From Henriciella sp. (GTDB lineage Bacteria > Pseudomonadota > Alphaproteobacteria > Caulobacterales > Hyphomonadaceae), in contig NZ_JAPYPG010000006.1 in assembly GCF_029937755.1 (NCBI RefSeq), positions 124,001-188,000 of the forward strand: 64,000 nt of DNA. Reading direction: 5' to 3'. Below are positions 47,343 to 49,752 of the stretch, piece after piece. The position numbers and the translations under genes were made by a program. The notes under the pieces are model-generated. The model searched no databases. It was given only the letters and a program-made list of their open reading frames with translations, and had not been told where the DNA came from. Positions within the stretch are counted from its first letter, which is position 1, and every line of letters begins with the position of its first letter.

Positions 47343-47423
47343 CTACCCAGACCCCACACTTTCGAAAGCGACCGTCTTGCGACTGAACAGTAGGCGGAGG
47401 TCTAGAAGCTCAGTTTGAGTTAC

Positions 47424-48707
47424 TCAAAGATCGCGGAAGAAGAGCCGCCCGTCACGGGCGACAAAATAGAAGCCCACCTGTCCGATGAGCGCTCCAGTAT
47501 CGGGGTCACCGAAAATCTCTGTTTCCCCAATCCGCACGACATAGTGCTTTGACCGCGGGTCGGGGTCGCCTGGCGGCCAGGGTTCTCCCGTGGGCGTGAC
47601 GCTTGCCGGTAATGGGGTGGCCAGGTTATCGAGCTTGCGGAAGCCGCTGTTGCAGAAGCCGAATCCCTTATATTCAGGATCGGTCAGGACGCGCATATAA
47701 TAAACGTCTTGCGGCGGCTCGGTCCCGGCCATCTCCACCGACCTTGGAATGAGCGGATAGACCTCGCGATAGGCTGTGCCATCCGGACCATTATAGCGAT
47801 CCACATGGCCACCGCCGGAGCGTGTGAGCGTGCCATAGTCAGAAATGTGGCCGGCGGAGCGGTCTCGTCTGTAATTGCGCCAGGTGTTTCCGTTCGCGAA
47901 TATCTCGTTCGGGAACCCGAAAAGGTTGCGATAGAGATCGATATCCTGACGCATAATGTCTTCAAGGTGAACATAATCAGCGTTCGCGTAGCGATCCATG
48001 CTAAAGACCGCCTCAACCCATTCATCCTTTAGCTGCGCCGCTCCCATGGCCGGACAGCGCGCATCAACCCAACCGTACGTGCCAGGCCCCTGAGGCGGCT
48101 TTGGACCGATTAAATTGTAGCCATGGGCGCCGGGGAGCGCGCCGATCTGCTCATAGTCCGCTTCCGCCTGTTCGCGTCACGCCTTCCATTCCTCAAGCGT
48201 TGCTTTCTCCACGCTGGCACCGACAAACTCGATTTTCGCTAACGGACTTTCATAGGCATCATCCGTCTTGTAGCCCCAGCCCTGGCTCAAATCCTCGATA
48301 TCATCAAACCAGATTGCGAGCGGGCGAAGATCCTCTGGGATTCGCTCTTGACCCTTCTGCGGATCGGATGTGTAGGGCTCCCATCTGTCGCCCTCACACA
48401 TGTCGATGGTTGTGATCGCGATCGCATGCCTGTCCCCGGCTGGCTGGTACATCATCTCCGGCGCCAGGGCCGTAAACGCCGTGTCCGTTGTGTGGATATT
48501 CTCGAATGCGGTGTAATTGCAGGCAACGACATAATCAAAGCTGACCGTCTCGCCGGTTTCCTTCAATTTGAAGTCGGCTTTAAGGCTGTAGAAAAACCCG
48601 ACAGGACGCCCTGCCTCGGAGGACGATGGTGCCGATGGCGAACAGGCTGAAAAGCCCAGGACGGCAAGGGTAAGAAACCTGGCACGTTGGCGAAGGCGTG
48701 TCTTCAT
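47424..48707 (-). pseudogene. Secreted lipoprotein gene interrupted by one in-frame TGA
   Basis: From ATG 48707 the frame reads MKTRLRQRARFLTLAVLGFSAC (signal and lipobox) for 176 codons to a TGA at 48177-48179, then continues in the same frame for 250 codons to a TGA at 47424. The join reads LEEWKA-[TGA]-REQAEADYEQIGALPG; sequence and codon use look protein-like on both sides. A TGG-to-TGA change (Trp) is the simplest explanation. The product would be a 427-residue Trp/Tyr-rich lipoprotein of unknown function. If TGA terminates, a downstream ATG at 48047 could start a 207-aa fragment without a signal peptide. Confidence 0.6.
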
Positions 48708-48757
48708 GGCGGTCTCCCGGTCTCGGCTGGGGAGATAGGATCAACCTGAAGTAAATT
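48702..48757 (-). repeat. Copy 1 of a duplicated gene leader
   Basis: Contains the first codons and leader of the 48707 gene. GGATCAACCTGAAGTAAATT and CTTCATGGCGG are shared with 49531-49585; only about 8-9 positions in the middle differ. It suggests a duplicated promoter/leader. Confidence 0.85.
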
Positions 48758-48831
48758 CCGCCCTAAGCCCGGCAGCGAAATTGCCGCCACCGGGCTTTCG
48801 TAGGTTGCGGACCGTGTGGCGCTGTCACGCG

Positions 48832-49536
48832 CTATTCCCCCGACATGTATTGAACGTTTATCGCCGTACATCGAGCCAGCCCGCTATCGTCTGGATAGGG
48901 GTGGAGGATCGTTCGAAAGTAATTGTTCATCCGGTGCATTTCGCGGCCGTCCCAAAGCTTGGCACACCACTCCGGTCTTCTTGATTGATCTGGAGGCTGC
49001 CAGGCAAATTCTTCCTGATTGACGAGACAACCCGGTTCGCACCGAACCAAGATACCGGTGTCTGACGGTCTATGCGGCACTTGATCAAGGGGCGCGAGTT
49101 CGGAAACCCTTACCTGATAGGGGCCGGATAGATGTGATGCCAAAAGGCCGAGGGAAATCCGCGTACAATAGGCAGGCGTTTGGGACGTGGCCTTGCGAAT
49201 ATCACCGTCCCGGAAAACACATTTCCGTTTCCCGGACTTGTCCTGCGCACACATTTCGTTGCTGCCAACCGTCCATTCGACGCACCAGTCCGGTACCAGA
49301 AGTCCCATCTGTTCATCACGGACCAGTCAGCAACCCGGCTTGCATTCCAACTCAACCGGCTCGTTGGCGCTAGGCAAATCATCGATCCGGGCGGCCCTTA
49401 TGCTATCGTAAGTATTAGGCTCAGTCTGCGCAAACATCTGAATGTTCGGCGAATTCTGGAAAAGAAAAAGGGTGGAAAGCTCGCATGACAAGATGATGCT
49501 CACCACAAGCCCGGTGCGGCGGAGAGGTGACTTCAT
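48832..49536 (-). pseudogene. Cysteine-rich secreted protein gene interrupted by one in-frame TGA
   Basis: ATG 49536 (GGGAG upstream) starts MKSPLRRTGLVVSIILSCEL, a signal-like segment, and runs 69 codons to TGA (49327-49329), then 164 codons in the same frame to TAG 48832. The stop falls right after a CKPGC motif; the downstream part contains a related CEPGC motif (ILVRCEPGCLVNQEEF), and the residues after each are similar (LVRDEQ / LVNQEE). About ten cysteines suggest disulfides in the periplasm or outside. Not recognised; nonsense mutation, sequence error or recoding cannot be separated here. Confidence 0.5.
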
Positions 49537-49585
49537 GGCGGGCTCCCGGTCTGGTCGGGGCAATAGGATCAACCTGAAGTAAATT
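49531..49585 (-). repeat. Copy 2 of a duplicated gene leader
   Basis: Near-identical to 48702-48757 and in the same orientation, placed at the same position relative to an ATG-AAG start. The repeat ends at AAATT on the far side from the gene. Confidence 0.85.
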
Positions 49586-49752
49586 CTGGCTAAACGGCGC
49601 TTTCAATTTTTTTCGTTGTGATGCAGGCATGAGCGCTTGCTCATCTCCACGATGACCAGGCTTGCCCCCGCGCCTACACCCCGCAGTTGCGAAATTTGTG
49701 ATCTGAGAGTAGGCCGGACCCCTCATATTCTGGCTACCGATTCAGGCGCCCC

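Follow-up and report, generated by a model that had tools for sequence, protein, structure and literature searches.

Two neighbouring Henriciella genes for putatively exported proteins are each interrupted by one TGA, probably through nonsense mutation

We describe two neighbouring genes, each interrupted by a single in-frame TGA, in a 64,000-nucleotide stretch of DNA (hereafter the window) from a genome that we take to be a Henriciella, a marine genus of the Hyphomonadaceae. The most probable explanation is that a rare and often-lost accessory gene pair has recently acquired two nonsense mutations, which would be ordinary gene decay without any special reading of the code. Gene 1 looks like a lipoprotein gene of an unnamed family, while gene 2 would encode a small cysteine-rich protein. 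That both proteins are secreted is our assumption, made by eye on the basis of an N-terminal hydrophobic stretch in each and, in gene 1, a lipobox-like LGFSAC. In the course of events that we propose, two accessory genes for putatively exported proteins, sharing a common duplicated leader, would have received one nonsense mutation each. The features are listed in Table 1.

Table 1. Features of the interrupted gene pair, in window positions.
Feature	Position	Strand	Basis
Gene 1, lipoprotein-like, unnamed family, one interrupting TGA	47424..48707	minus	ORF reading and uninterrupted relatives
Premature TGA of gene 1, codon 177	48177..48179	minus	column is Trp in 8 of 9 relatives, Asn in 1
ATG-started ORF behind the gene-1 stop, 207 aa	47424..48047	minus	ORF list
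Gene 2, small cysteine-rich protein, N-terminal hydrophobic stretch, one interrupting TGA	48832..49536	minus	ORF reading and relatives
Premature TGA of gene 2, codon 70	49327..49329	minus	relatives have Arg, Leu, Asn
ATG-started ORF behind the gene-2 stop, 158 aa	48832..49308	minus	ORF list
Leader of gene 1	48708..48758	minus	leader alignment
Leader of gene 2	49537..49586	minus	leader alignment
Leader motif CGGNRTTWAYNNCAGGTTGA, copy before gene 1, 0 mismatches	48741..48760	minus	motif scan
Leader motif CGGNRTTWAYNNCAGGTTGA, copy before gene 2, 1 mismatch to the pattern	49569..49588	minus	motif scan

The first-pass annotation had claimed two neighbouring minus-strand genes, each split by a single in-frame TGA, and this description holds: the frames are open behind the stops and are matched by relatives. 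Gene 1 starts with an ATG at 48707 and has, after its TGA, 250 open codons until a TGA that ends at 47424, while gene 2 starts with an ATG at 49536 and continues for 164 open codons until a TAG that ends at 48832. These continuing frames are not there by chance, since none of 2,000 letter shuffles of the stretch behind each TGA was free of stops, for gene 1 and gene 2 alike, and since the proteins of relatives match both genes across the stop. In Henriciella aquimarina LMG 24711 (G002), both genes are uninterrupted and stand side by side, in the same order and place as in the window, flanked by frames that we take to be a methyltransferase and glyQ. The H. aquimarina copy of gene 1 is 44% identical to that in the window; its copy of gene 2 is 81% identical, of equal length and without a gap. 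Relatives carrying two separate genes, the outcome that would have spoken against interruption, were looked for and none was seen.

We then considered which residue relatives have in place of each stop. For gene 1, nine relatives were aligned (eight from a search of 398 genomes of the order, plus the copy at L038), and the column is Trp in all but one of them, the exception being Asn in a Henriciella metagenome-assembled genome (MAG; G025). This agrees with the earlier proposal that a Trp codon was turned into a stop. The count is made without the window gene and without two fragments (from G206, the same stretch as L039, and from G011) that lack this column or do not show it clearly. For gene 2, the three relatives that have the region show Arg (G002), Leu (G179) and Asn (G095), and Cys in no case; the copies in G179 and G095 are distant relatives, and the latter carries a stop of its own elsewhere. 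What marks a pseudogene, orthologues without the interruption and with a sense codon in its place, was accordingly seen in nine relatives for gene 1 and in three for gene 2. The gene-2 protein also contains two CxPGC...WC repeats (window 49344-48964), which are present in the G179 and G095 homologues as well. The stop of the G095 homologue is one TAG (L051 1848-1846, minus strand) with an open frame behind it, in a column where G002 and G179 have Trp.

Ribosomes would be expected to stop at either TGA and to yield truncated products, which up to the stop amount to 176 aa for gene 1 and 69 aa for gene 2. Such products would presumably not work, making both genes pseudogenes or nearly so. The first start behind the stop is 44 codons downstream in gene 1 and 7 codons downstream in gene 2, where the 207-aa and 158-aa ORFs begin. 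The 207-aa ORF could give only a piece of the protein without export signal.

How exceptional these two stops are within the window was assessed by comparing it with ORFs of at least 80 codons from G026 (120 kb from the same place) and G002 (20 kb). The matched window parts came to 58,311 bp for G026 (57 best matches) and 18,195 bp for G002 (16 best matches). Interior stops were found there only in gene 1, in both comparisons, and in gene 2, in the G002 comparison only, G026 being without gene 2. All other flagged stops lie at the 5' end of a match and precede its first in-frame start codon (ATG, GTG or TTG), which comes at most 19 codons after the last stop. Three of them precede glyQ in the G002 comparison, where those at 49591 and 49630 were judged by their position upstream of the third.

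Both gene families are rare. Among 29 genomes of the genus, 4 have gene 1, its own included; among 398 of the order, 10 do. Gene 2 was found at E 0.01 in 3 of the 29 genus genomes (the third being a short match, E 0.006) and in 4 of 105 genomes of the family (the weakest at E 0.004), and at E 0.001 in 4 of the 398 genomes of the order. Damage is seen in further copies as well: G206 and G011 have only fragments of gene 1, and the match to the G192 copy breaks off some 55 bases short of the point where an IS6 transposase frame starts. This IS6-family frame (L046 941-1447, minus strand) lies directly behind the truncated copy. On the best reading, genes 1 and 2 form a dispensable pair that has often been lost in the order. 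We prefer relaxed selection on such a pair because the families are rare and are decaying elsewhere; if the pair is dispensable, mutations in it would persist, and relaxed selection would account for two adjacent hits. Finding both hits within one pair is a hint, though no proof, that the two proteins function together. Strict pairing of the genes is spoken against by G095 and G179, both of which have relatives of gene 2 but no gene-1 match at E 0.1.

The age of the gene-2 break was approached through dN/dS, calculated between the window and G002 with our own Nei-Gojobori-type script. Gene 2 gave 0.33 overall, 0.43 before the TGA and 0.27 after it. The break looks recent because dN/dS behind the TGA is 0.27 and there is no indel, but such a low value would fit continued full translation as well, and this one pairwise comparison cannot separate the two. 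The dS of gene 2 to G002 is 0.287, compared with 0.61-1.05 for six neighbouring genes, while that of gene 1 is 1.27 before the stop and reaches saturation at its C-terminal end. Taken in steps of 60 bases, DNA identity to G002 ranges from 0.73 to 0.97 over 48681-49580 and from 0.30 to 0.62 over 47421-48140. Gene 2 and its leader are thus closer to G002 than the six neighbours are by dS, and gene 1 is further away. This makes the locus a mosaic, probably one produced by recombination.

The two genes had been described as having near-identical leaders, and this was borne out by alignment, in which 51 of 57 columns are alike, with an unbroken run of 24. The gene-1 leader also resembles that of H. 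aquimarina gene 1, with two differences by eye in the last 90 bases before the start. Since the gene-1 and gene-2 proteins show no likeness past the first residues (by eye), the leader plus first codons were probably duplicated or exchanged. Scanning for the motif CGGNRTTWAYNNCAGGTTGA with at most one mismatch gave two hits in the window genome and three in G002, all before genes belonging to one or other family. The remaining 27 genomes of the genus had three hits (a single one in each of G021, G023 and G028); a backward control of the motif gave nine hits over the 29 genomes. The motif is absent at the one-mismatch limit before the gene-1 copies of G026 and G025; by eye, a similar string precedes the G026 gene, and an inverted similar string is found in G332. 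The TTAA-N7-TTGA of the leader might conceivably be CtrA-like. The motif, which in two genomes stands only before these families, gives a minor hint of a private regulator.

Searches gave no hint of function. In Pfam and NCBIfam, five proteins (the window pieces and the two H. aquimarina copies) had nothing over cut-off, the best E being 0.14; this covers the pieces and the H. aquimarina copy of gene 1, and likewise those of gene 2. PHROGs and PADLOC gave no match at E 0.01, nor did a tblastn search of PLSDB plasmids, and no relative of gene 2 was found in viral contigs. The best PDB matches had E values of 0.65 and 0.68, and structure predictions were poor, with mean pLDDT of 42.4 and 29.2.

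Nonsense mutation is not the only way to explain the stops. Sequencing or assembly error at one or both TGAs, with genes that are whole in the organism, is unlikely but is the alternative to be taken most seriously. The draft assembly comprises 36 contigs, each stop sits at an ordinary sense codon of relatives within otherwise well-aligned sequence, and the low dN/dS behind the gene-2 stop is what an intact gene would show. Random errors, however, would have no reason to strike two accessory genes side by side. No further interior stop was seen where the window could be matched to G026 and G002, and gene 2 has no indel relative to its relative. We infer that the stops are in the organism rather than only in the assembly. 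A quite improbable alternative is leaky read-through of UGA by the ordinary Trp tRNA, producing a little full-length protein and, in gene 1, inserting the residue that most relatives have. A TGA followed by C is a leaky context, and C follows both TGAs; the Trp column of gene 1 and the low dN/dS behind the gene-2 stop point the same way. That context is not special, however, since C also follows 8 of the 33 TGA-ended long ORFs of the window (a number that probably includes the gene-1 TGA), and none of the three relatives has Trp at the gene-2 column. Moreover, the one Trp tRNA in the list of tRNAs, with anticodon CCA, folds its anticodon stem with 5 bp, unlike a tRNA-Trp form with a 4-bp anticodon stem that is reported in PMC13092985 to read UGA.

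A wider change of the code finds no support either. TGA had been called a genuine stop in this region, and indeed it is the commonest stop of long ORFs, ending 33 of 51 in the window (at least 150 codons from stop to stop, non-overlapping, and not all of them need be genes). There is no UCA anticodon among the 40 tRNAs listed, a list that lacks any Ile tRNA and is therefore incomplete, possibly owing to unassembled rRNA operons; a suppressor tRNA might thus still lie outside the assembly. With TGA in such common use, no UCA tRNA listed and a 5-bp Trp stem, we consider UGA reassignment or a suppressor tRNA unsupported.

Programmed UGA recoding, such as selenocysteine insertion, had been raised for exclusion in gene 2, where the TGA adjoins a CKPGC motif, and we now regard it as exceedingly improbable. 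Searches of the genome gave no match to selA (4 of 14 control genomes match, E. coli among them, 1 over cut-off). For selB there were seven matches, none over cut-off, located in open frames 214 to 891 codons long (controls: 14 of 14 match, 2 over cut-off), which we take to be other translation GTPases. Of 562 first-look candidates for tRNA-Sec, 150 were scored, giving nine matches but none over cut-off (controls: 14 of 14 match, 5 over cut-off); ARAGORN assigned these to Ser, Ser, Leu, Gly, Leu, Ser, Tyr and Gly, and the ninth to Glu. Recoding has in its favour the cysteine motif and a hairpin behind the gene-2 TGA, for which 9 of 200 shuffles were as good (z -1.90; plain RNA folding of 63 bases, with no SECIS model). 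The uninterrupted G002 copy forms the same stem, however (36 of 200 shuffles as good, z -0.96), and the fold behind the gene-1 TGA is unremarkable (169 of 200, z +0.96). With neither stop column holding Cys in the relatives compared, no selA, nothing over cut-off for selB or tRNA-Sec, and a hairpin that is not specific to the TGA, selenocysteine was rejected. This removes one candidate for UGA recoding, and it illustrates that a TGA beside a cysteine motif can mimic selenocysteine and yet be a plain nonsense mutation.

Besides the low dN/dS and the hairpin behind the gene-2 TGA, one more point counts against two nonsense mutations: premature TGAs in two neighbouring genes, with no other found in the window, are coincidental if no functional link exists between the genes. 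A more elaborate scenario would have a co-regulated surface or periplasmic pair that is repeatedly switched off by single stops, with leaky UGA reading leaving a trace of full-length product and the leader serving as the operator of a dedicated regulator. The stops that can be cited for such switching are the two TGAs in the window and the TAG in the distant G095 copy of gene 2, and we give this scenario little credence. If the two stops are real, as nonsense mutation has it, the locus captures two linked accessory genes shortly after their loss.

Three known systems are close enough for comparison. Bacterial selenoproteins are made by decoding UGA with a SECIS hairpin and SelA, SelB and SelC. 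The window genes resemble them in having an in-frame TGA, which in gene 2 lies beside cysteines, but differ in that no machinery was found, the relatives compared have no Cys at the column and the hairpin is not tied to the TGA. With the UGA-reading tRNA-Trp reported in PMC13092985, the window genome has in common that its single listed Trp tRNA is CCA; it differs in the five pairs of the stem and in using TGA as the commonest stop of the window's long ORFs. The pair also resembles bacterial pseudogenes that arise by nonsense mutation, with a single in-frame stop, a frame that is kept, uninterrupted relatives and an accessory gene that is often lost. What sets the present case apart from these is that two neighbours have been hit, once each, behind the same duplicated leader.
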